The notes below the pieces were generated by a model that did no database searches, was not told the DNA's origin, and saw only the letters and a program-made list of their open reading frames with translations. This document shows, in pieces, positions 19,020 through 40,334 of a DNA stretch of 64,000 nucleotides. Origin of the DNA: Neoasaia chiangmaiensis (GTDB lineage: Bacteria > Pseudomonadota > Alphaproteobacteria > Acetobacterales > Acetobacteraceae); NCBI RefSeq assembly GCF_002005465.1, contig NZ_CP014691.1, positions 2,116,501 through 2,180,500 on the forward strand. Reading direction: 5' to 3'. How positions within the stretch are numbered: the stretch's first letter is position 1; each line of letters opens with the position of its first letter. A program made the translations under genes and the position numbers.

Positions 19020-19096
19020 GCGCCCTTAGCTCAGTTGGATAGAGCAACAGCCTTCTAAGCTGTGGGTCGCTGGTTCGAATCCAGCAGGGCGCGCCA
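19020..19096 (+). tRNA. tRNA-Arg (TCT), prophage integration target
   Basis: 77-nt cloverleaf with encoded CCA; acceptor GCGCCCT/AGGGCGC, anticodon loop CTTCTAA giving TCT. The phage integrase gene begins 82 bp downstream and points toward it, the standard layout for integration into a tRNA 3' end; the tRNA is left intact. I found no repeat of its 3' end elsewhere in the window. Confidence 0.96.
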
Positions 19097-19178: not shown

Positions 19179-20375
19179 TCACATCAGTCGGCCACGTGTG
19201 GCGGCGATTGAGACAACTTTGCTCGTCGTCCTCTCCTGATGTTTCTCCCATGCTTCCATGCCGGCTACCGCCACTTCGGTGCGTCTGGGCAGATAAGTGT
19301 CAATGATGCGCTGACAGTAATCGATGCCATGCCCGGAGATCGCGGCGATTTGCGGAGTCGTCGCTCCTGCCTCGGCAAGGCGAACAATACCTGTGCGCCG
19401 AAGGTCACGCCGCTGCCGATGCTGTGCGCTGAGTTCCTGTCGGACCTCTTCCTTGCTTTTCCCGCATTTGAACAGTTCGCGTGCGTGCGCCAGGCCGAGG
19501 CGGCCCATGACCTGATCCCACGCCCGGGCAAAGTTGCGATTCGCCCAGACCTTCCCTGTCGGGCTCGGGACCAGCAGTTGCAGCGGAGCTGGTCCTATTC
19601 GAGCTGTGATGACACCGGCCTGTTCAAGGTCCTCGCGCGTAAGCTCAGCGAGCCGTCTTTGAATATGCGGCACAAGCCTCGTGTGCACAGGGACATCCAG
19701 CAGCGCGCCGGTTTTCGCCTGGCGCAATGCGATGAACATGCGACCGTCACGTTGCGAGATCCGTGCGGCGTCCATCGCAAGGACGTCACTTGGTCTTTGG
19801 ACCGTGTAGAGCAGAAGCAGGTAGGCGAGCTGAAGGGTAGGGCGCGCGCGCTCCAGAAACGCGTCCTCCATGCGATAGCTCCATATCTCAGTGCGACTTG
19901 CGATGTGCAAGCGCCCAAATCTTTCGGCAACATTGTCGGACACGAGGCCACTGTCCTTCGCGCGGCCAAGCAGGATTTGCAGCAGAGAGAGCACCTGGTT
20001 CGCTTTTCGCGGCGTAACGCTCAGGCGTTCGCGAATCGCCAACACGTCCTGCCGAGTGATGGCGCGTGCTGGAATATCTCCCCAGTCTTCCCGCATCCGA
20101 TCGAGATAGCCGCGGTAAAGGATCTGCGTCGTCTTTCGCAGCGACCGATAAGATTCGGATTTAAGATAGTCGACGATCAGCGCGGCGATGCTGCCGGTTT
20201 GAACGCCGGCAGCCTGCAAAGGCGAAATGGACAGTTGCGCAAGGCTTTCGAGCGCGATTGCGCGGTCGTGCCCAAGGAAGCGCTTCGTTTTCCGGTCATA
20301 GAAATATTCAATGGTGGTTCCGTCGCTGCGACGTTTCCGCACCACGTTGAGGCCGGTTCTGCGAGAGGGTGGCAT
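19179..20375 (-). CDS. int: Phage integrase (tyrosine recombinase)
   Basis: 398 residues. A SAM-like N-terminal binding region (about 50-150, SLRKTTQILYRGYLDRMRED) precedes the catalytic domain. The box I Arg is in VQRPSDVLAM; box II reads RRDLRRTGIVRLAEAGATTP, then ISGHG and the nucleophile Tyr in DTYLPR. Box II normally begins with His (HxLR); here that position is Arg. Last gene of the leftward operon, overlapping the preceding helix-turn-helix gene by 68 bp, and next to the tRNA-Arg target. Confidence 0.92.
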   Translation of the reverse strand: MPPSRRTGLNVVRKRRSDGTTIEYFYDRKTKRFLGHDRAIALESLAQLSISPLQAAGVQTGSIAALIVDYLKSESYRSLRKTTQILYRGYLDRMREDWGDIPARAITRQDVLAIRERLSVTPRKANQVLSLLQILLGRAKDSGLVSDNVAERFGRLHIASRTEIWSYRMEDAFLERARPTLQLAYLLLLYTVQRPSDVLAMDAARISQRDGRMFIALRQAKTGALLDVPVHTRLVPHIQRRLAELTREDLEQAGVITARIGPAPLQLLVPSPTGKVWANRNFARAWDQVMGRLGLAHARELFKCGKSKEEVRQELSAQHRQRRDLRRTGIVRLAEAGATTPQIAAISGHGIDYCQRIIDTYLPRRTEVAVAGMEAWEKHQERTTSKVVSIAATRGRLM

Positions 20376-22449: not shown

Positions 22450-22988
22450 ACTCCCGATCCCTTCATCTGGCGGATGGCGGCGGCGCACTTCGACGTGACA
22501 ATCACGAAACCCGCGCTCCACTTGCCGTCATCAAGTCGATCACAAACCCGCGCCGCATCTTCCAGCGCCTTCCGCCGTTCATCCGCGCGAATGGTCGCTT
22601 CGTCTAAAGCGGGCGCTTGCGGGGCCGTTAATGGGCGCACGAAGTGGAGAATCATTTCGGCGTCTTCCGTGTCGAAGGCGCTCGCGAGCGTCCAGCCGCC
22701 ATCAGCGACCCAAGCCGGTAGTTCCACCTTGGCCACGTCCTCACGCGACAACGACTCTCCACGCTCCCAGTCCCACTCTTCGGATAGAGAACGGCTTTCG
22801 ATGCCGAGATAGGTCAGCACGGACGCTATGTGGCTTGGTTCCCAATCCTCATCGAACATCCGCTCGAACCGTGCACATGGCGGCCCATCCGGGAGCCCAA
22901 CGTCCTGAATATGCCATTCATATGAACCAACCGACGGTTGAGCGCTCAGCTGCTCAGTCGGGGCCTCGTCTCGTTGCTGGTCGTTCAT
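22446..22988 (-). CDS. Phage protein of unknown function
   Basis: 180 residues from the ATG at 22988. Acidic and soluble-looking (YEWHIQDVGLPDGPPCARF, ERMFDEDWEPSHIASVLTYL), with a C-terminal helix LEDAARVCDRLDDGKWSAG. No motif recognised. Translationally coupled on both sides in the leftward operon. Confidence 0.6.
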   Translation of the reverse strand: MNDQQRDEAPTEQLSAQPSVGSYEWHIQDVGLPDGPPCARFERMFDEDWEPSHIASVLTYLGIESRSLSEEWDWERGESLSREDVAKVELPAWVADGGWTLASAFDTEDAEMILHFVRPLTAPQAPALDEATIRADERRKALEDAARVCDRLDDGKWSAGFVIVTSKCAAAIRQMKGSGV

Positions 22989-24478
22989 GGCACGTCTCCC
23001 GCCAGCCATGACGGCATGCGTTTCGGCACGGAATTGCCGACCAGGCGCATGCCTTCCGTTTTCGTCAGGGGTCTAATCTCGCCGCCGATGTTGACCCACG
23101 TCGGCAGGCGCAACTCATGGGCTGCCGCAGCTTCGCGCACGTCCAGCATCCGCATGGTGATGTCGGTAATCGCATAGCTTGCGCTCCCGATTTCCACACC
23201 GACGACGCCGAAGCGGGCCAGAGTCGTCAGCGCGTGCAATGGCTCGCGCGCATCCTGGTGCTGTGATCCCTGGCCATAGTATTTGGTCAGGAAAGCGCCA
23301 ACGCATGCGATATGGCGGCCGCCTGACGTAACGGTCGGAAGAGGATCCTCGATATCGGCCGACTGGCTGGTGCCGCGCAGGTGAGCGAGCGTTGCGGCCG
23401 TCAGCTGCTGCTGCGTGCCACGCGATGTCAGCGTCGAGAGAGGGTCATTGAGATCCGTGCCGACGACGCCTTGGTCGACCGTGAAGTTGTGCTGCGCCAT
23501 CCACGCGGAGACGACCGACAGTTCGCCACGGTGCGCGCCCGTGATCGTCGGCAACGGCTCTGTCGTATCATAAGCCCGAGGTGCCCCCGTGTGTGTAATC
23601 GGCATGATGAACGGACGCGGGTTTTCGAGAATGTAGCGCCGCAATCCATGCGCGATCCGCCGCTCGGTATTCGGGCGAAGCGGACGCGGCCGGTTGAAAA
23701 TGCTGCGCATCGGGATCGACCAGTCGATGATCGTGTGAGCGCCGACCCATGGTCGCAGACGCTCGCTTTTGGCGCGATCGCGGGGCGCGTGCGTGCGTTG
23801 CGGCCAGGCGATCGGCAGGGCGTCGTAACGGACAACGGCAAACCATCGGCGCCGCGTCGTCGGAACACCGAAATCCGCGCAGCACAGGTCGCGATCTTCA
23901 TATTCACCGCCCAGCTGGCGAAGATGGCGGACAAATGCCCGAAAGCTCTTGCCCGTCCGGCGTTTGTCGCGGACCAACTGCTGGAGATGGCGCGGCACCC
24001 GCTCGCCACGCGCCGCAACAGTGCCGTCGAGCTTGACGACACGTCCGGTCGTGCGGTCGCGCTTGGCGATCAGCGGCCCCCAGCCACGGATCTCGCGCAC
24101 GTTCTCCATCATGACGATACGTGGACGCACCTTTCCGACCCAGCGGCATACCTGCCACGGCAGAGAGCGCACGCGCGCACTGCGCGGCGCACCACCTTTC
24201 GCGACAGAGTGATCGCGGCAATCCGGGCTGGCCCAAAGGACGTTGACGGCCCGCCCGCCTGTCGCTTCCAGAGGATCGACGTCGAAGATGTCGCCTGTGA
24301 CGTGGCGTGTGTGCGGGTGGTTTGCAGCATGCGCCGCGATCGCCACTGGGTCGTGGTTGCACGCGACATGAACCGGGCAGCCAGCGTCTTCCAGGCCTTC
24401 GCATGCACCACCGAGCCCTGCGAACAGGACCACGGTGATTTCGGCGTCGAGCGCCCATTGTGTGGAGACGTGCTTCAT
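22985..24478 (-). CDS. DNA cytosine-5 methyltransferase
   Basis: 497 residues. Motif I FAGLGG (19-24), motif IV SPDC (84-87, the PC dipeptide altered to DC as in a known phage/MTase subgroup) with RDHSVAKGG after it, motif VI ENVREI (125-130). The C-terminal half has at least four spaced xPLxTxTxxG motifs (EPLPTITGAHRG, DPLSTLTSRGT, DPLPTVTSGGR, EPLHALTTLAR) and the LPTWVNIGGEIRPLTKTEGM block ending in GNSVP. Probably protects phage DNA from host restriction (inference). ATGA overlaps on both sides. Confidence 0.9.
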   Translation of the reverse strand: MKHVSTQWALDAEITVVLFAGLGGACEGLEDAGCPVHVACNHDPVAIAAHAANHPHTRHVTGDIFDVDPLEATGGRAVNVLWASPDCRDHSVAKGGAPRSARVRSLPWQVCRWVGKVRPRIVMMENVREIRGWGPLIAKRDRTTGRVVKLDGTVAARGERVPRHLQQLVRDKRRTGKSFRAFVRHLRQLGGEYEDRDLCCADFGVPTTRRRWFAVVRYDALPIAWPQRTHAPRDRAKSERLRPWVGAHTIIDWSIPMRSIFNRPRPLRPNTERRIAHGLRRYILENPRPFIMPITHTGAPRAYDTTEPLPTITGAHRGELSVVSAWMAQHNFTVDQGVVGTDLNDPLSTLTSRGTQQQLTAATLAHLRGTSQSADIEDPLPTVTSGGRHIACVGAFLTKYYGQGSQHQDAREPLHALTTLARFGVVGVEIGSASYAITDITMRMLDVREAAAAHELRLPTWVNIGGEIRPLTKTEGMRLVGNSVPKRMPSWLAGDVP

Positions 24479-30843: not shown

Positions 30844-30891
30844 ATGTCCGCTCCAGATACGCGACGTCTGCTAGGGGCACAATATTCATGA
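30844..30891 (+). CDS. 15-codon mini-frame, possible coupling leader
   Basis: ATG at 30844 to TGA at 30889-30891 (MSAPDTRRLLGAQYS), overlapping the methyltransferase ATG as ATGA. The encoded peptide has no recognisable identity; it may only deliver ribosomes to the next start. Confidence 0.25.
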   Translation: MSAPDTRRLLGAQYS

Positions 30892-31514
30892 GAGCCTCGG
30901 GCTACGCGCGTCACGAAGATGGTTGGTACGTCGAGCCACCTTGGGCGGTCGATGCATTGATCGAGGTCGAAAGGCCATTCTCGGGGCTTGTCGTTGATCC
31001 CTGCTGCGGCGCGGGTAATGTCGTCAAGCGGCTGGAGCTTGCCGGTTACCTCGCGAAAGGTGGCGATTTACGGATGCGGTGGGACCGCGCTGTGATCGGA
31101 ACGTTTTCCACCACACTTGAGTGCTATCAGCCGGACAGTGTTGTCAGCAATCCGCCGTATCATCTGGCGCAAGAGGTGATCGATTGCGCGCTAAAGTACT
31201 CGAGCGACCGTGTGTGCATGCTACTACGGCTAGGATTTCTTGAGAGTGTGAAGCGGCGAGGATGGTTCCAGGCGACCCCGCTCGCCCGGGTTTGGGTTTC
31301 GAGCCGGCGGATGTCGATGCCGCCCGGCGGTTCAGATGTGAAGGCGGATGGAGGCGCGATCCCGTACGCCTGGTATGTGTGGGAACATGGCTATTCTGGC
31401 GCGCCGACCCTCGGATTTCTCCCGGATGCCGGTATGGGGCAGCAATCTCATTCTCTTCCGCGATCCTCGACCGACCGATCTATCGATGCTCTGTCCAGGA
31501 GCGTGAGGCGATGA
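30888..31514 (+). CDS. SAM-dependent DNA adenine methyltransferase-like protein
   Basis: 208 residues. DPCCGAGN (37-44) is the SAM-binding motif and SNPPYH (87-92) the NPPY catalytic motif of amino-methyltransferases; EPPWAVDALIEVERPFSG precedes. Target-recognition domain is not obvious, so the substrate is probably DNA adenine but unproven. The C-terminal 35 residues are low complexity. ATGA overlap with the next gene. Confidence 0.78.
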   Translation: MRASGYARHEDGWYVEPPWAVDALIEVERPFSGLVVDPCCGAGNVVKRLELAGYLAKGGDLRMRWDRAVIGTFSTTLECYQPDSVVSNPPYHLAQEVIDCALKYSSDRVCMLLRLGFLESVKRRGWFQATPLARVWVSSRRMSMPPGGSDVKADGGAIPYAWYVWEHGYSGAPTLGFLPDAGMGQQSHSLPRSSTDRSIDALSRSVRR

Positions 31515-32360: not shown

Positions 32361-32768
32361 ATGAAAAACGTCGCGGCAGCGCGTGTGGGCGATATCGTCC
32401 TGCGCGGCAATCGTCATGTACTGATTGTCGCCGTTGCGGACGGTCTCGCGCGCGTCGTGCCGCTCATTCGGGGTCGCACGGAAATTCATCGATCAGACGT
32501 GCGTCTGCCCGAAGCAGCTTGCCTCTCGTTGAGCACACACAATGTCGTGCTGCGGTGTTGCGACGCTCATTGGCGGACGAATGTGTTTGCCCCTCGCGTC
32601 GGGCAGGCAGACGCAGCGCTTTTGAGCGACGTCACGCTTTCGTTGCAGCGGGAGGCGCAGACGCGTGAGATCGAGAAGCTGCCAGCCGGCATTGTGCGAT
32701 CGGTGCTCGGACGAGGTCCGAGGATCGGTGACTGCGGTCGGAAAGTAGGCGGCGCGCCATCCGATTGA
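32361..32768 (+). CDS. Phage protein of unknown function (SH3/PemK-like barrel suspected)
   Basis: 135 residues. N-terminal VGDIVLRGNRHVLIVAVADG then LARVVPLIRGRTEIHRSDVR is reminiscent of the PemK/MazF-like or SH3 barrel start, but no clear catalytic set can be seen and no antitoxin gene is adjacent. C-terminal half QREAQTREIEKLPAGIVRSV is helical. Treat as hypothetical. Confidence 0.45.
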   Translation: MKNVAAARVGDIVLRGNRHVLIVAVADGLARVVPLIRGRTEIHRSDVRLPEAACLSLSTHNVVLRCCDAHWRTNVFAPRVGQADAALLSDVTLSLQREAQTREIEKLPAGIVRSVLGRGPRIGDCGRKVGGAPSD

Positions 32769-32798
32769 TGAGCACGAAATGCGGCAGAATAATCCGGA

Positions 32799-32883
32799 GT
32801 TATCTGGCACCGATGGAAGAGCGATGTGGCAGATAACCCGATATACGGCCCGAAAGGCCGACAGATAATTACTGTTATCTGCC
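32799..32883. promoter_or_regulatory. Array of inverted GTTATCTG motifs and a hairpin upstream of the second recombinase
   Basis: GTTATCTGGCA at 32799 and TGGCAGATAAC at 32827 form one near-perfect inverted pair; CAGATAA-TTACTG-TTATCTG at 32862-32881 forms a second, perfect one. A hairpin CGGCC-CGAAA-GGCCG sits between them (32846-32860). The array is about 70 bp before the recombinase ATG. It could be a recombination site or an operator. Confidence 0.6.
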
Positions 32884-32950
32884 GGATTTAGTCCACTCGA
32901 AAGGCGCATGAAATGACGACATTTCAATGTGTTAGTGGAGATATGGACGA

Positions 32951-33802
32951 ATGGCGAAGCGCGTAGCCTCAAAATCGTCCAATATCTCCGACGACGAAAG
33001 GCTGATGCAGCTCTGGCTTCATGGCGTGTCTCAAAACACGGTGAAGGCCTATCGGCGAGACATGGAAGCGTTCCGTTCATGGGTGGTAAAGCCGCTCGTC
33101 GAAGTGACGCTGGACGACCTGCAGAACTGGTACACCTCTCTCGATGGTGCGGATGCGACCCGGCGCCGGAAGCTTGCTTCCGTGAAGTCGGGGCTCGCAT
33201 TCGGTACGCGCGTTCGCCTGCTCCCGGTTGATGTTGGTGCGGCGCTTCGGCTCGAGAGGGAGCGCGACACGCTGAACGAGCGCATCCTCCTCGAGGAAGA
33301 TGTGCTGCGGATGATCGACCGCGAGCAAAGTCCACGGAAGAGGGCATGCCTTCGTGTCCTCTATCTTCTGGGGCTTCGTATCTCCGAGATGTGCGCGCTG
33401 ACCTGGCGGAATATGACTCGCCGGCAACAGGGAGGCATTGCCTCAGTTTTCGGGAAAGGCGGGAAAACCCGCAGCGTGCCGGTCCCGGCCAAGCTGTGGA
33501 AAGAGCTCATGGCGCTGAGAGTAGACAACCGGCCCGATACGCCAGTTGTCCCCGGCCATGATGGCGGCAAGCTGAGCTTGAGCGCGGCACATCGCCTCGT
33601 GAAGCGGGCCGCCGGGCGTGCCGGATTGCCAGACAGCGTTTCGGCGCACTGGCTCCGGCACGCCAATGCATCCCATGCGCTGGACAACGGCGCACCGGCT
33701 CACGTCGTGCAGGCCACCCTTGGCCACGCTTCGCTCGCCACCACGACGCGATACAGCCACGTCCGCGAGGGCGACGGGACCGGAAATTATCTGAAGGGCT
33801 GA
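32951..33802 (+). CDS. Second tyrosine recombinase, XerC/D-like
   Basis: 283 residues, Xer size. N-terminal SAM-like domain (LHGVSQNTVKAYRRDMEAFR), then catalytic set: Arg in LLGLRISEMC, Lys in GKGGKTRSVPV, HWLRH (box II intact), GHAS, and Tyr in TTRYSHVR. It is independent of the tRNA-proximal integrase 13 kb away. Possible roles are dimer resolution, a DNA inversion, or being a second integrase acquired from another element. Confidence 0.92.
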   Translation: MAKRVASKSSNISDDERLMQLWLHGVSQNTVKAYRRDMEAFRSWVVKPLVEVTLDDLQNWYTSLDGADATRRRKLASVKSGLAFGTRVRLLPVDVGAALRLERERDTLNERILLEEDVLRMIDREQSPRKRACLRVLYLLGLRISEMCALTWRNMTRRQQGGIASVFGKGGKTRSVPVPAKLWKELMALRVDNRPDTPVVPGHDGGKLSLSAAHRLVKRAAGRAGLPDSVSAHWLRHANASHALDNGAPAHVVQATLGHASLATTTRYSHVREGDGTGNYLKG

Positions 33803-33848: not shown

Positions 33849-34040
33849 ATGGCTCGAGCCAAAACTTACCGCCCCGCTGATTTCGTGCCGACACAGGCCA
33901 ATGTGTGGGCGCGGGCTGCGGACGGATATGATCGTATTGCCCGGACGGACCGTTTGCCGGGTAAACGCATCTGGGCGCAGGAAGAAGCGCAGCGCTGCCG
34001 GCGAATGGCGGCTCGTGAAGCGAAGGATATCGTCGCGTGA
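33849..34040 (+). CDS. Small basic phage protein
   Basis: 63 residues from the ATG at 33849 (GAGAGG upstream; an earlier in-frame ATG at 33831 is possible). RPADFVPTQANVWARAADGY, then a basic helix. It ends in GTGA overlap with the DUF3164 gene. No function known. Confidence 0.5.
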   Translation: MARAKTYRPADFVPTQANVWARAADGYDRIARTDRLPGKRIWAQEEAQRCRRMAAREAKDIVA

Positions 34041-34648
34041 GCCATAATCCTGACGACTACATGACTGACTCCGCCGGTCGTCTCGTGCCTCGAAAGAACG
34101 TGCGCGCCGAGGACCTGCTTCAGGACGAGCTCGTGCGCAAGTTACACGAGCAGGCTGCGCAGCATCGTGAGGCGTTACGCTCCTTCCGGGAGACCTGCTT
34201 TGCCGATATTGCCAGTCTGCTCGATCTGCTGTCCGAGCAGTACGACGCGAAGAAGGGTGGTGCGAAAGGCAATCTTACGCTGTCCAGCTATGATGGCCGT
34301 CTTCGTGTCTCGATTTGCATCGGCGATGCAATCAGCTTCGGGCCAGAACTCCAGGTTGCGAAAGAGCTTATCGATAGCTGTCTAACGCGGTGGAGCGAGG
34401 GCGCGAACGACAATATCCGGGCGATTGTCATGGACGCGTTCGATGTTGGGAAAGAGGGACATCTCAGCGCAACGAAGATTCTGGCGTTGCGGCGGCTCTC
34501 GATCGACGATGATGAATGGAACCGCGCTATGCATGCGATCACCGCGTCCGTTAAGGTGGACGCGACGCGCAGCTATGTGCGGTTCCATGAGCGTGTAGGG
34601 CAGCGCGAGCCGTTCGTTCAGGTGCCTCTGGATATGGCCCGGGCTTAG
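34037..34648 (+). CDS. DUF3164 family phage protein
   Basis: 203 residues from a GTG in a GTGA overlap. DSAGRLVPRKNVRAEDLLQD, then FADIASLLDLLSEQYDAKKG, GNLTLSSYDGRLRVSICIGD and AKELIDSCLTRWSEGANDNI match DUF3164, known mainly from Mu-like phages. Function unknown. No transposase genes are near. Confidence 0.8.
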   Translation: MSHNPDDYMTDSAGRLVPRKNVRAEDLLQDELVRKLHEQAAQHREALRSFRETCFADIASLLDLLSEQYDAKKGGAKGNLTLSSYDGRLRVSICIGDAISFGPELQVAKELIDSCLTRWSEGANDNIRAIVMDAFDVGKEGHLSATKILALRRLSIDDDEWNRAMHAITASVKVDATRSYVRFHERVGQREPFVQVPLDMARA

Positions 34649-34663: not shown

Positions 34664-35308
34664 TTAATTTGAATGCGCTGTTGTGTATAACTGCGCCCCG
34701 TAGGCAGTGGAGGCTAAACGTTCTATGCCAATGCTGTTGCTTGGTTTAGTGAAGATGTTGAGTGAAGTAAGATGCGATAGTGAAATCTCGATTTCATTGC
34801 GATAGATATTTGCTCCGCTTTCATGGCTTGCACTTTCGACAAACTTTATTATCCCATCGATATTGCAGTATTTGTTAGGCCCGACTGGCGAGGTGACACC
34901 ATAGAGATACCGGAAGACAAGCAGATCGATTGGCTCAAACGAACGAAGAGTTTTTATGAATTCTCTGCGGAAGCCTCGGAGATGACCCGTTGCAGTCTTG
35001 GCCAATAGACAAGCCCAAATTTCTTGGAATTCCTTACGGTCATCGTCCATCGTTGCTTCGAGGATTGGCCTAGTGTTGGTCTCCGATATCTCGTCAGATG
35101 GGATCGTTGGTTGATCTCCAATCTTAGCCCGGGCCAGCGCCATCACTGCTTCACTGTTTGTTTCTCTCCGCTGCCTAGCCCGGCGGAGGGGGTCGCTGAT
35201 CAAATAGTTGACAAGCTCCTTTGAGGCATCAGTCACTCCAGGTAACGCAAGCTGCGCCTGCCTCATGTCATTGAACATTTGTAGAATAAGATCTGCCGCC
35301 ACGGCCAT
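34664..35308 (-). CDS. Abi-alpha (DUF4393) abortive-infection-like protein
   Basis: 214 residues from the ATG at 35308 (a GTG 3 bases upstream is possible). DPLRRARQRRETNSEAVMAL, ARAKIG, RPILEATMDDDRKEFQEIWA, CLLAKTATG and FIKTLRSFEPIDLLVFRYLY match the DUF4393/Abi-alpha family: a bundle of helices with the EExxxxQxxWxxLL-like core. Opposite strand to its neighbours and visibly A/T-richer, so a moron expressed by itself. Exclusion of other phages is inference from family naming. Confidence 0.7.
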   Translation of the reverse strand: MAVAADLILQMFNDMRQAQLALPGVTDASKELVNYLISDPLRRARQRRETNSEAVMALARAKIGDQPTIPSDEISETNTRPILEATMDDDRKEFQEIWACLLAKTATGHLRGFRREFIKTLRSFEPIDLLVFRYLYGVTSPVGPNKYCNIDGIIKFVESASHESGANIYRNEIEISLSHLTSLNIFTKPSNSIGIERLASTAYGAQLYTTAHSN

Positions 35309-35499
35309 CACCTTCAGAACTGAGCCAAACCTGCATTGAAGCTTTGACACAGGATGTAACAGCGCGTTCTGACGCACAAGAGGTGATGGGTATGCAGGCA
35401 GGGGCTGAGCTGCTGACACAGCTCAAGCCGCGCAGCTCACACTGCGCACGGGAACCCCCGCCCTGACTCCCGAGGGAGCAGGGACATATTGGGCACCAA

Positions 35500-36306
35500 A
35501 TGGTTAACAACTGGTTAACGCCTGCCGATCCGGCAGCGCCTGTCGCTCCCTATTTGGGCGGCAAACGTAATCTCGCACGAATCATCGTGCAGAAAATCTC
35601 CGCTATCGAGCACACGACTTATGTCGAGCCGTTTGTGGGAATGGGCGGTGTTTTCCTTCGCCGCCCATTCCGGGCAAAAGCCGAGGTCATCAACGACATC
35701 TCACGTGATGTCTCCAATCTGTTCCGCATATTGCAGCGGCACTATGTTGCCCTGATGGACCTCTTGCGGTTCCAGATCACAAGCCGATCGGAATTCGAAC
35801 GTCTCGTCGCAGCGAAGGCTGAAACGTTAACAGATTTGGAGCGCGCAGCTCGCTTTCTTTACCTGCAACGACTGGCATTTGGCGGCAAAATTAGCGGACG
35901 CAATTTTGGCGTGGATGTCGCCCGGCCTGCACGTTTTGATGTCGCGAGGCTTGGACCATTGCTCGATGAGGTTCACCAGCGGTTATCGGGCGTCGTTGTC
36001 GAGTGTCTGCCGTTCGAGCGTGTCATCAGTGTCTACGATCGGCCGGGGACGCTCTTCTATCTCGATCCACCGTATTTCGGCTGCGAGAAAGACTACGGCC
36101 CGAACGTCTTCCATCGAGACGATTTCGAGCGACTTTCGGGGCTATTAGCTCAGATCAAAGGTCGCTTCCTGCTGTCGTTAAACGACCGGCCCGAGGTGCG
36201 GGCCATCTTTTCGCGTTTCACGATCGAGCCCGTTACCACGTCTTACGGTGTGGGGAAGGGCTCAACTGCGGCGCGTGAGCTCCTTATCTCTGGCCCGGAA
36301 AATTAA
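35500..36306 (+). CDS. DNA adenine methylase (Dam / D12 class)
   Basis: 268 residues. PYLGGKRNL (18-25) and EPFVGMGGVF (43-52) form the SAM site; LDPPYFG (188-194) is the DPPY catalytic motif; SLNDRPEVRAIF is the later conserved block. The order I-IV matches alpha-class D12 methylases. It probably modifies adenines in phage DNA, which could protect from restriction or mimic host methylation (inference). Confidence 0.9.
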   Translation: MVNNWLTPADPAAPVAPYLGGKRNLARIIVQKISAIEHTTYVEPFVGMGGVFLRRPFRAKAEVINDISRDVSNLFRILQRHYVALMDLLRFQITSRSEFERLVAAKAETLTDLERAARFLYLQRLAFGGKISGRNFGVDVARPARFDVARLGPLLDEVHQRLSGVVVECLPFERVISVYDRPGTLFYLDPPYFGCEKDYGPNVFHRDDFERLSGLLAQIKGRFLLSLNDRPEVRAIFSRFTIEPVTTSYGVGKGSTAARELLISGPEN

Positions 36307-37738: not shown

Positions 37739-38347
37739 ATGTCCGCACCTGCCGCGACCGGCGTTTCGATCCGTGAATTCGCGCGGCTCGCCGGTTGCGA
37801 TGATAAGCAGGTGCGTCGGGCCATTGAAAAGGGCAGAATCCAGCGCTTTTCTGATGGTTCTATCGATCCCGCGCAGGTCGATGGAGATTGGCGTCGAGCG
37901 ACGCGAAGGGGCGCGGACAACCGTGCGGACAATTTGGTGAAACGCAGTGCGGACAAACCGAAAGTGTCCGCACCGGCGAAACGACGCAAAGTGTCCGCAC
38001 CCGCGAAGGACGAAACTCCGGCGGAAGCGGCAGAGCGGATCGTTAAGGAAGCTGGCGGCGACCTCTTGCCGCTGAACGCAGCAATCTGTTTGAAGGAAAA
38101 CTTCGCCGCGCGCCTCAAGCAACTCGAGTACGACCAGAAGGCTGGCAAGGTTGTCGATGTAGCATTGATCGCGAAGAAGGTCGGGGAAGAATATGCCCGG
38201 GTCCGGACACGGCTCCTTGCCATCCCAGCGGAGCAGGCTCCGACGCTCCACCGCTTCAAAACGGTGACGGAACTGCAGGACCGACTTTTGAACCTCATAA
38301 TCCGCGCTCTGGAAGAACTGACAGCCGATGGAGATGCTGCTTCCTGA
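37739..38347 (+). CDS. Terminase small subunit (Nu1-like)
   Basis: 202 residues. N-terminal winged helix (GVSIREFARLAGCDDKQVRR then AIEKGRIQRFSDGSIDP) typical of Nu1, which binds cos; a Lys-rich linker (PKVSAPAKRRKVSAPAK); then helix RLKQLEYDQKAGKVVDVALI and LTADGDAAS. Its end overlaps the large subunit by 20 bp. Confidence 0.85.
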   Translation: MSAPAATGVSIREFARLAGCDDKQVRRAIEKGRIQRFSDGSIDPAQVDGDWRRATRRGADNRADNLVKRSADKPKVSAPAKRRKVSAPAKDETPAEAAERIVKEAGGDLLPLNAAICLKENFAARLKQLEYDQKAGKVVDVALIAKKVGEEYARVRTRLLAIPAEQAPTLHRFKTVTELQDRLLNLIIRALEELTADGDAAS

Positions 38348-40334
38348 GACAGAATATGTCGCAGGATACGCGGAGTTCTGTCGTCAGCTTGTGAACGCTC
38401 GCAAGTTGAACCTCAAACCACCGCCGAAGCTGACGATCAGTCAGTGGGCCGCAGAATATGCCGTCTTGTCAAAGGAGACGAGCGCCCAGACGGGCAAGTT
38501 TGAAGCGTTTGCCTATCAGCCCGGTATTATGGACGCGATGTCAGACCCGGCGGTCGAACAGGTTTCGGTGATGAAGTCGGCCCGCGTCGGCTACACGAAA
38601 ATTCTCGATCACGGAATCGGCTACTACCTCCATCAGGATCCGTCACCCATCCTCGTCGTGCAACCCCGCGTCGAAGATGCCGAGGACTACTCAAAGACTG
38701 AAATCGAGCCGATGTTGCGCGATACCCCGGTACTGTCGGAGATCGCGGGCAACCCGAAAGCAAAATCAACAGATCAGACGATCCTGAAGAAGACGATGCG
38801 CAACGGTGCATCGCTGACTCTGGTTGGTGCGAACAGTCCCGGCGGCTTTCGCCGTATTACCGTCCGCATTGTCATGTTCGACGAAGTGGACGGCTACCCT
38901 GTAGGCGGGGCGGGCACGGAAGGCGATCAGATCGCCTTGGGCGCCAAGCGATCGGAGACCTTCTGGAACCGTAAGGTCATTGCGGGGTCCACACCGACCG
39001 TCAAAGGGCTCAGCCGTATCGAGGCCCGATACGAAGAAGGCGACATGCGTCGCTTCTACGTGCCGTGTCCGCATTGCGGCGAGAAGCAGGTCCTGGAATG
39101 GGGCGGTAAGGAAACGCCGCATGGGATCAAATGGGACAAGGATGCCGCTGGGAATAATGTCCCAGAGACTGCGCACTACGTCTGCCGTCACAATGGCTGC
39201 ATCATCGAAGAGGCCGATAAGCCCGAGATGGTCGAGGCAGGCGAGTGGATCGCGGAGAAGCCGTTCAAGGGTCACGCCTCGTTTCATATTTGGGCGGGGT
39301 ATTCCCTGTTTCCTAATGCAGCATGGGGAAAGCTTGCGGCTGAATGGCTGCGGGTCAAGGACAAGCCGCTTGAGCGCCAGACGTTTGTTAATCTCGTCCT
39401 GGGGCTCCCTTACGAGGACCGCGGCGAAGGAGCTCTCAACGAGATCACCCTCGCCGCCCGGACCGAAGTATGGGCCGGTGAGGTTCCGGAAGGTGTTGCC
39501 ATACTTACGGCCGGCGGCGACACGCAGGACGACCGCATCGAGCTTGAGATTGTCGGCTGGGGAAAAAACGAAGAACGTTGGTCGATCGCGCACCTGGTTT
39601 TTGAAGGTGATCCAGACGGGCCCGAGGTATGGGAACAGGTCGATTCTGCTTTGAAGCGGCAATGGTTCCGGGCGGACGGCCAGCCGTTCACAGTCAGTGC
39701 GGCATGCCTCGATTCTGGTGGTCATCATACCCAGAAGGTCTACGAGTTCTGTAAAGCGCGCCTCGGCCGCAAAATCTGGGCTATCAAGGGCGAGTCCGCT
39801 CGTGGTGGGGCGCGGTCTCCCGTATGGCCGAGCAAGCGCATCACTGCGCGCAACAAGTCCAAGTTTCGGCCAGTGATCATCGGCGTCAATGCAGCCAAGG
39901 ACGTTATCCGCTCCCGGCTGCATCTGAAACCTGCCGACAACGGTGAGCCCCAACCTGGCTACATGCACTTTCCGTCGGATCGCGACGTAAACTATTTTGC
40001 TCAGCTCGTCGCAGAACGTTCCGTCCGGAAAAGCGAGAGGGGAAAAGTTTTTCGTGTCTGGGAAAAGCTTCCAGGACGGAACAATGAGGCTTTGGACCTT
40101 GCAGTCTACAGCTATGCGGCGCTCTGCGGCCTCTACCACATGGGCCTGAAGCTTAATGCGAAGGCGGACCAGATAGCGTCAGAGAGGCCAGATCCAGAGC
40201 AGGTCCGGCACGCGACTGCGCTGTCGATAGAAGGGAGCGGGCCGAACGACGATGTCGGTGCGAAGAATGGCCAGTCCTTGGTCGAAACCTCGACGCCAGC
40301 ATCGCAGAAGCGCCGGTCTCGCTGGAGTTTTTAA
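38328..40334 (+). CDS. Terminase large subunit (lambda gpA type)
   Basis: 668 residues. Walker A-like SARVGYTK (as in lambda gpA), Walker B-type IVMFDEVDGYP, PTVKGLSRIEARYEEGDMRR, then the nuclease half (LTAGGDTQDDRIELEIVGWG with metal Asp). Zinc-like CPHCGEKQ. It packages DNA into proheads. The start is ATG 38328 or 38334, inside the Nu1 end. Confidence 0.95.
   Translation: MEMLLPETEYVAGYAEFCRQLVNARKLNLKPPPKLTISQWAAEYAVLSKETSAQTGKFEAFAYQPGIMDAMSDPAVEQVSVMKSARVGYTKILDHGIGYYLHQDPSPILVVQPRVEDAEDYSKTEIEPMLRDTPVLSEIAGNPKAKSTDQTILKKTMRNGASLTLVGANSPGGFRRITVRIVMFDEVDGYPVGGAGTEGDQIALGAKRSETFWNRKVIAGSTPTVKGLSRIEARYEEGDMRRFYVPCPHCGEKQVLEWGGKETPHGIKWDKDAAGNNVPETAHYVCRHNGCIIEEADKPEMVEAGEWIAEKPFKGHASFHIWAGYSLFPNAAWGKLAAEWLRVKDKPLERQTFVNLVLGLPYEDRGEGALNEITLAARTEVWAGEVPEGVAILTAGGDTQDDRIELEIVGWGKNEERWSIAHLVFEGDPDGPEVWEQVDSALKRQWFRADGQPFTVSAACLDSGGHHTQKVYEFCKARLGRKIWAIKGESARGGARSPVWPSKRITARNKSKFRPVIIGVNAAKDVIRSRLHLKPADNGEPQPGYMHFPSDRDVNYFAQLVAERSVRKSERGKVFRVWEKLPGRNNEALDLAVYSYAALCGLYHMGLKLNAKADQIASERPDPEQVRHATALSIEGSGPNDDVGAKNGQSLVETSTPASQKRRSRWSF

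Follow-up and report, generated by a model that had tools for sequence, protein, structure and literature searches.

A five-armed DNA array and the tyrosine recombinase gene which it directly precedes probably form a self-contained, phage-borne site-specific resolution system which would convert dimers and multimers into monomers. Both are located in a prophage of Neoasaia chiangmaiensis, within a stretch of 64,000 nucleotides (positions 2116501-2180500 of a single contig of 3.4 Mb, NZ_CP014691.1) that is referred to as the window and whose numbering is used throughout; the prophage lies inside this contig and is not kept as a plasmid. What is directly observed comprises the arms and their spacing, the way in which they change jointly between phages, the tie of the array to the gene and the retained active site of the encoded enzyme. 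A preliminary description of the same DNA had proposed a recombination site for this second recombinase of the prophage, serving either resolution, a plasmid state or an invertible switch. Judged from the sequence, the array is apparently of the recombination type and tied to the gene, and resolution would be the best of the functions offered.

The four octamers on which that proposal was based are clearly present. Direct reading of the sequence reveals three copies of GTTATCTG at 32799-32806 (+), 32830-32837 (-) and 32874-32881 (+) and a variant, ATTATCTG, at 32862-32869 (-). Counting both strands, TTATCTG occurs nine times in the window, whereas 300 dinucleotide shuffles contain 2.6 on average. 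Chance does not account for the clustering either: four octamers fall inside 90 bp, while the biggest cluster in any shuffle comprises two and none of the 300 shuffles reaches three. The octamers constitute the inner parts of 11-nt arms, five of which are found upstream of the recombinase gene, namely E and A separated by a 7-bp spacer, a lone arm B and a 28-bp core composed of C and D (Table 1). This core, CCGACAGATAA-TTACTG-TTATCTGCCGG at 32858-32885, exhibits an Xer-like 11-6-11 geometry and, as its centre is not self-complementary, it has a direction in spite of its nearly symmetric arms. Of the two inverted pairs that had been described, the last one alone forms a core of the recombinase type, and the unit turns out to be longer at its left side, where it includes the degenerate fifth arm E. 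Together, E and A look like a second, altered core of the same direction as C-D. Pairing by inverted repeat is possible for A with B, C with D and B with D. A further TTATCTG, at 33787-33793, lies near the 3' end of the recombinase gene; no motif matching it is found at that place in the phages phiAP1 or phiKM1, and it probably occurs there by chance.

Table 1. Features of the array, its gene and its surroundings (window coordinates)
Feature	Position	Strand	Remarks
Separate integrase of the prophage	19179-20375	-	not part of the system; beside tRNA-Arg 19020-19096
Arm E (GCGGCAGAATAA)	32781-32792		degenerate, leftmost arm; carries one extra base; 7 bp to the left of A
E-A spacer TCCGGAG	32793-32799		7 bp; same length in all 30 distinct type-1 arrays listed
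Arm A (TTATCTGGCAC)	32800-32810		right-hand orientation
Arm B (GTGGCAGATAA)	32826-32836		single arm in left-hand orientation; direct repeat of C, 32 bp to its left
CGGCC-CGAAA-GGCCG stem	32846-32860		real in the window; not a conserved part
Core arm C (CCGACAGATAA)	32858-32868		inverted repeat of D at 10/11 positions
Core central region TTACTG	32869-32874		6 bp; not self-complementary
Core arm D (TTATCTGCCGG)	32875-32885		right half of the core
Simple tyrosine recombinase	32951-33802	+	283 aa, ATG start; starts 65 bp past the last 11-nt arm
DUF3164 protein gene	34037-34648	+	PF11363, E 1.2e-69; downstream of the recombinase

A check on the conservation of the array with the gene, which had been set in advance, was run on the recombinase's clade, comprising loci with more than 54.3% identity to the recombinase. 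All five arms are complete at the same spacing in 99 of its 101 loci, the other two (L093 and L028) being cut by contig ends; these loci come from overlapping collections, so they are not 101 independent phages, and identical arrays are counted once where this is stated, the number of distinct arrays being 59. One locus, L085, was kept despite a TGA reported in frame. phiAP1 and phiKM1 share this layout, hereafter type 1, with other letters (TTATCTTGCG and TTATGTCCC types). While the arm letters vary between phages, the distance from E to C stays constant at 75-76 bp and that from B to C at 31-32 bp. In 57 of 58 distinct upstream sequences that possess a core and belong to proteins of more than 53% identity, the ATAA of arm E is placed at -76 or -75 from the core ATAA, that of arm B at -32 or -31, and the TTAT of arm A at -65 or -64, compared to an average of 0.1 for these tetramers at other offsets. 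The sole sequence without the extra arms is that of L142 which, at 54% identity, is omitted from the 101-locus clade by the identity cut. The information content of 30 arrays of equal length amounts to a mean of 1.4-1.7 bits in the arms versus 0.56 and 0.78 bits in the linkers.

The hairpin between B and C, in which the preliminary description had seen a structured centre, does not share this conservation. Although the CGGCC/GGCCG stem is present in the window, only 15 of the 59 distinct arrays (window included) have a perfect stem of 5 bp or more at this place, with differing letters, and the other 44 lack it; we therefore reject the hairpin as the centre of the site. Such stems are nevertheless commoner than the mean of mononucleotide shuffles (15/59 versus 2.3), and the count falls to 4/59 if it is restricted to the linker alone.

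The arms change jointly from phage to phage. This was assessed with 11 representatives of 34 distinct arrays and 5000 permutations, a procedure that ignores the relatedness of the phages. The letters of C and D match at 5.00 of 6 positions within a phage compared to 3.85 between phages, those of B and C at 5.00 compared to 3.56, and those of B and D at 5.09 compared to 3.58, none of the 5000 permutations being as high in any of the three cases. Similarly, no permutation is as high for E-B, and 11 are for E-C. Arm A covaries weakly (40 permutations as high for A-D, 33 for A-C); its covariation with B is not clear (272/5000), and between E and A covariation is absent (2.82 within versus 2.88 between; 3902/5000). 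Since B and C are direct repeats, their joint change is not explicable by RNA pairing. Altogether, no fewer than ten arm motifs occur among the 11 representatives, on a scaffold that stays fixed.

That the array belongs to the second recombinase, as had been suggested, is borne out by the 99 complete clade loci and by two DNA patterns derived from the array. These match 35 stretches of the viral collection, 16 of which contain a complete array and 19 neither array nor gene. Fifteen of the 16 arrays have the recombinase gene in the same stretch, and the sixteenth stretch (L185, 1,143 bases) belongs to the contig of L116, where the gene is present. In 112 array-matched pairs, which are not independent of each other, similar arrays are preceded by unrelated DNA, the homology stopping 0-20 bp left of the ATAA of arm E; the position of this edge indicates that array and gene travel as one module.

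The same edge might be expected of a second integrase whose attP, formed by the core, places the phage or a module of it elsewhere, and there are phages, Brujita among them, that integrate by means of a simple tyrosine recombinase (PMC8138268). We nevertheless assign a very low probability to this explanation. The array lies whole inside prophages with phage genes on either side (a gene for a 135-aa protein upstream in 87 of the 100 other clade loci, the DUF3164 gene after the recombinase in 98) and is not split into attL and attR. Moreover, a second, separate tyrosine recombinase ORF is found in 18 of 22 viral contigs of the clade that were tested, the other four of which may be cut. Of seven type-2 viral records (see below), mostly fragments, only one shows such a second ORF. 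Both phiAP1 and phiKM1 carry a separate integrase besides the recombinase, and the integrase of phiAP1 suffices by itself, as a vector equipped with it and with attP is described to integrate unaided (PMC8566455).

An invertible switch, the third of the functions offered, is unlikely and was rejected, as the window, scanned with up to 6/22 arm mismatches allowed, contains this one core and, apart from it, one place with 6/22 arm mismatches; an inverted second core is not present nearby, and no second core with up to 5/22 arm mismatches was found in the window. The exact CAGATAA-N6-TTATCTG is a single copy in the genome. Likewise, phiKM1, scanned in two pieces, and phiAP1, of which 27,272 of 42,805 bases were scanned, each show one core within these parts.

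The surroundings of the module deserve brief mention. The neighbouring ORFs, as far as this part of the window's ORFs was scanned, are phage genes, with no Tn3-family transposon with TnpA among them. An Abi_alpha domain gene (PF14337, E 5.7e-9) at 34664-35419 (-) lies between the genes for the DUF3164 protein and a D12-class adenine methyltransferase and looks like an inserted abortive-infection gene. DNA methyltransferase genes of three kinds occur in the prophage region, at 22985-24478 (-), 30888-31514 and 35500-36306. In addition, a 102-aa protein encoded at 28604-28912 matches the model of the cell-cycle regulator GcrA (PF07750) at its end only, in positions 110-149.

The recombinase ORF is intact and its product matches PF00589 (E 8.6e-27) and PF02899 (E 1e-06). 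A SAM-like domain spans residues 25-84 and the catalytic domain residues 116-272 of the 283, leaving no room for an arm-binding domain. The catalytic residues R143, E146, K169, H233, R236, H259 and Y268 are all present; the seven are retained by each of the 74 complete proteins (an additional one is incomplete) and are invariant in all 26 aligned phage proteins, which include those of more distant phages. In nine pairs dN/dS amounts to 0.05-0.21. An AlphaFold model based on 26 sequences (pLDDT 87.4, pTM 0.65) finds its best fold matches in the PDB with XerA, IntI4, an archaeal Xer and XerD, and also matches XerH, lambda Int and Cre; the closest solved sequences are XerD and XerC-like proteins. 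The scores against the NCBIfam models remain well below the cut-offs, with 147.5/329.6 bits for XerD, 144.4/335.15 for XerC, 130/220 for XerA and 39.8/267 for XerS.

The retention of the active site bears on the suggestion that the array is a simple operator, standing in front of the operon, with the protein being a repressor of tyrosine-recombinase fold. A precedent is given by MrpR of SPbeta, likewise a phage DNA-binding protein of this fold acting as a regulator (PMC10516654). The array does stand directly before the gene, and the only promoter-like match of the region (32765-32793) overlaps arm E, in which its second hexamer lies, although such matches are weak evidence. MrpR, however, is described as having lost the catalytic residues and as binding sites scattered over its phage (PMC10516654), in contrast to the residues kept in all 74 complete proteins and the one array seen in the window; furthermore, an 11-6-11 core of conserved geometry exceeds the needs of an operator. 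As the whole story an operator is therefore unlikely. As a second role of the array, repression of the recombinase's own promoter is nonetheless likely: because the array is located directly before the gene, before or over the promoter, binding of the recombinase probably limits the expression of its own gene.

A different layout of the arms (type 2) is observed in a sister clade (support 100/98; 97/84 for both clades together). Here, the extra arms are all in the same orientation, at -76, -53 and -21 from the core. They are seen in 12 of 16 more distant loci with an exact ATAA-N6-TTAT core (in one of them at -75, -52 and -21), the average for such motifs at other offsets being 0.04 per offset. 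L050 (identical with L164), whose core reads ACAA-CAATGG-TTGT, was assigned by eye as a thirteenth type-2 locus. Both layouts have the 75-76-bp frame in common, and the distances of 21, 32 and 53 bp correspond approximately to 2, 3 and 5 turns of the helix. L148, which is grouped with the other relatives considered below, contains two ATAA 23 bp apart resembling a type-2 remnant and speaks against a clean split of the layouts by clade. Being duplicates or cut loci, L147, L164, L029, L092 and L028 were omitted from the tree or from the 37 other relatives considered below. Among 54 more distant loci, 11 have a DUF3164 gene near the recombinase, seven of these belonging to the 13 loci assigned to type 2, and the DUF3164 protein is a possible partner of the recombinase.

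The comparison of both types is informative with respect to an element that would act as RNA, with C-D as an intrinsic terminator and alternative arm hairpins controlling readthrough into the recombinase and later genes. In 44 of the 59 distinct type-1 arrays a TTTT follows arm D within 3 nt, and the pairings named above are compatible with such hairpins; the type-1 core could indeed also act as a transcription terminator. Yet a T-run is present in none of 12 type-2 arrays, and their extra arms, all being direct repeats, cannot pair together. A terminator scan of the window finds none, and variants of arm D such as TTATCACGCGG break pairs with C. An RNA element hence appears highly improbable to us.

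Of the systems known, the closest in layout is that of TnpI and its site, the IRS (res), in Tn4430 and Tn5401. The TnpI site consists of IR1-IR2 and DR1-DR2, that is, of four subsites. As in the phages, a single tyrosine recombinase is composed of core-binding and catalytic domains and has no arm-binding domain. The type-2 array, with its extra arms all in direct repeat, especially resembles the arrangement IR1-IR2 plus DR1-DR2. In contrast, the array in the window has not four subsites but five arms, the type-1 layout including the E-A pair with its 7-bp spacer and the lone arm B, and is located outside a Tn3-family transposon in temperate phages with an integrase of their own. The TnpI site, too, is described as lying directly upstream of the gene and as combining an inverted-repeat core with further arms, and TnpI binding as also modulating expression (PMC7157771). 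Our best reading is that the phage system would work like TnpI/IRS, from which it is set apart by the absence of a Tn3-family transposon, the likeness being one of layout.

Other systems share fewer traits. Cre/loxP of P1 also consists of a phage-encoded tyrosine recombinase and a site beside its gene, and keeps the phage DNA monomeric (PMC2409434). P1, however, is a plasmid prophage, unlike the integrated prophage with its separate integrase described here, and the sequence relation to Cre is weak, being a fold match alone at 13-16% identity. Xer/dif and Xer/cer share the 11-6-11 core with ATAA and TTAT flanking the centre, yet one protein is present here, below the cut-offs for XerC, XerD, XerA and XerS, and its extra arms have the recombinase motif, whereas the accessory sequence of cer is described to be bound by PepA and ArgR (PMC2409434). 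A search for the host dif with CGCATAA-N6-TTATGTTAA gave matches with three mismatches at best, seven compared to nine in a reversed control, and thus identified no host dif. In tyroviruses, too, an additional tyrosine recombinase of the phage, gp50, is accompanied by a putative attP in which an 11-bp inverted repeat beside the gene surrounds a 6-bp centre (PMC9703825), but these are large Bacillus phages, and extra arms are not known to be reported for their site. A five-arm array was not found described in the open-licence literature searched.

In the resolution system that we propose, the recombinase would bind C and D and, with two core copies brought together, exchange strands across the 6-bp centre. 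The remaining arms, E, A and B, would be occupied by further subunits of the same protein, giving rise to a fixed complex; held at fixed phase, these extra arms would act like the subsites of res, IRS and cer. Such a complex would be topologically selective, favouring two directly repeated arrays on one molecule, and the reaction would reduce dimeric or multimeric circular phage genomes to monomers. As one core is found in the window and in the scanned parts of phiKM1 and phiAP1, two copies in a dimer or multimer would be the natural substrates. Counting against resolution, the phage integrates, and its need to resolve multimers is not obvious. Besides, the terminases of cos-packaging phages want concatemers.

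The terminase genes (small subunit 37739-38347, large subunit 38328-40334) follow the gene after a few kb, as might suit a recombinase that, instead of resolving multimers, fuses phage circles or circularises linear DNA with terminal redundancy in the manner of Cre in P1. In principle, recombination is reversible where each genome has one site; in known systems, however, added arms at fixed spacing favour intramolecular resolution, cer being the case described (PMC2409434), and we hold such a maker of multimers or circles to be distinctly unlikely. More speculatively still, and with little expectation of its being right, the array may be conceived as a concatemer sensor: once replication has linked phage genomes, synapsis of two arrays on one molecule would resolve the link and at the same time lift the block on the operon that begins with the recombinase, coupling DNA topology to the start of the middle and late programme, with the DUF3164 protein as partner.

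Close relatives of the recombinase are found in acetic acid bacteria. Relatives at E values up to 1e-60 are present in 17 of 299 genomes of the family, the window's own included, and among 385 genomes from across the class the window's own recombinase alone passes 1e-50. Plasmids harbour more distant kin, the best at 52% identity. Inspection of 12 plasmid neighbourhoods, one of them without annotation, revealed ParA or a replication initiator near the gene in L055, L060 and L061 and toxin-antitoxin genes in L056, L057 and L064. This speaks for the resolution reading and points to replicon maintenance, although it is no proof thereof. That the plasmid relatives carry the same array was not borne out. 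Among the 12 plasmid loci a clear 10-of-11 core is present in one (L055), and nine of 37 other relatives show a 9-of-10 core, only one of the nine coming from a plasmid record; control gaps of 8 and 12 nt yield nearly as many inverted repeats (8 and 7, versus 9 for 6 nt), even gaps sharing the same dyads. The 52% identical recombinase is encoded by L053 (NZ_CP015609.1), an unannotated 22-kb plasmid labelled 'Bacillus safensis', a species label that may deserve a check given the recombinase's other kin.

Should the resolution reading hold, temperate phages that integrate would possess a one-protein resolution system which is complete and includes a topological filter. To our knowledge, systems of this kind are known mainly from a few Bacillus transposons. 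The reading raises the question of why an integrating phage would undo multimers. The ten or more arm motifs on one scaffold would, in addition, represent a natural set for the choice of DNA by tyrosine recombinases and for recombinase-site pairs which do not cross-react.
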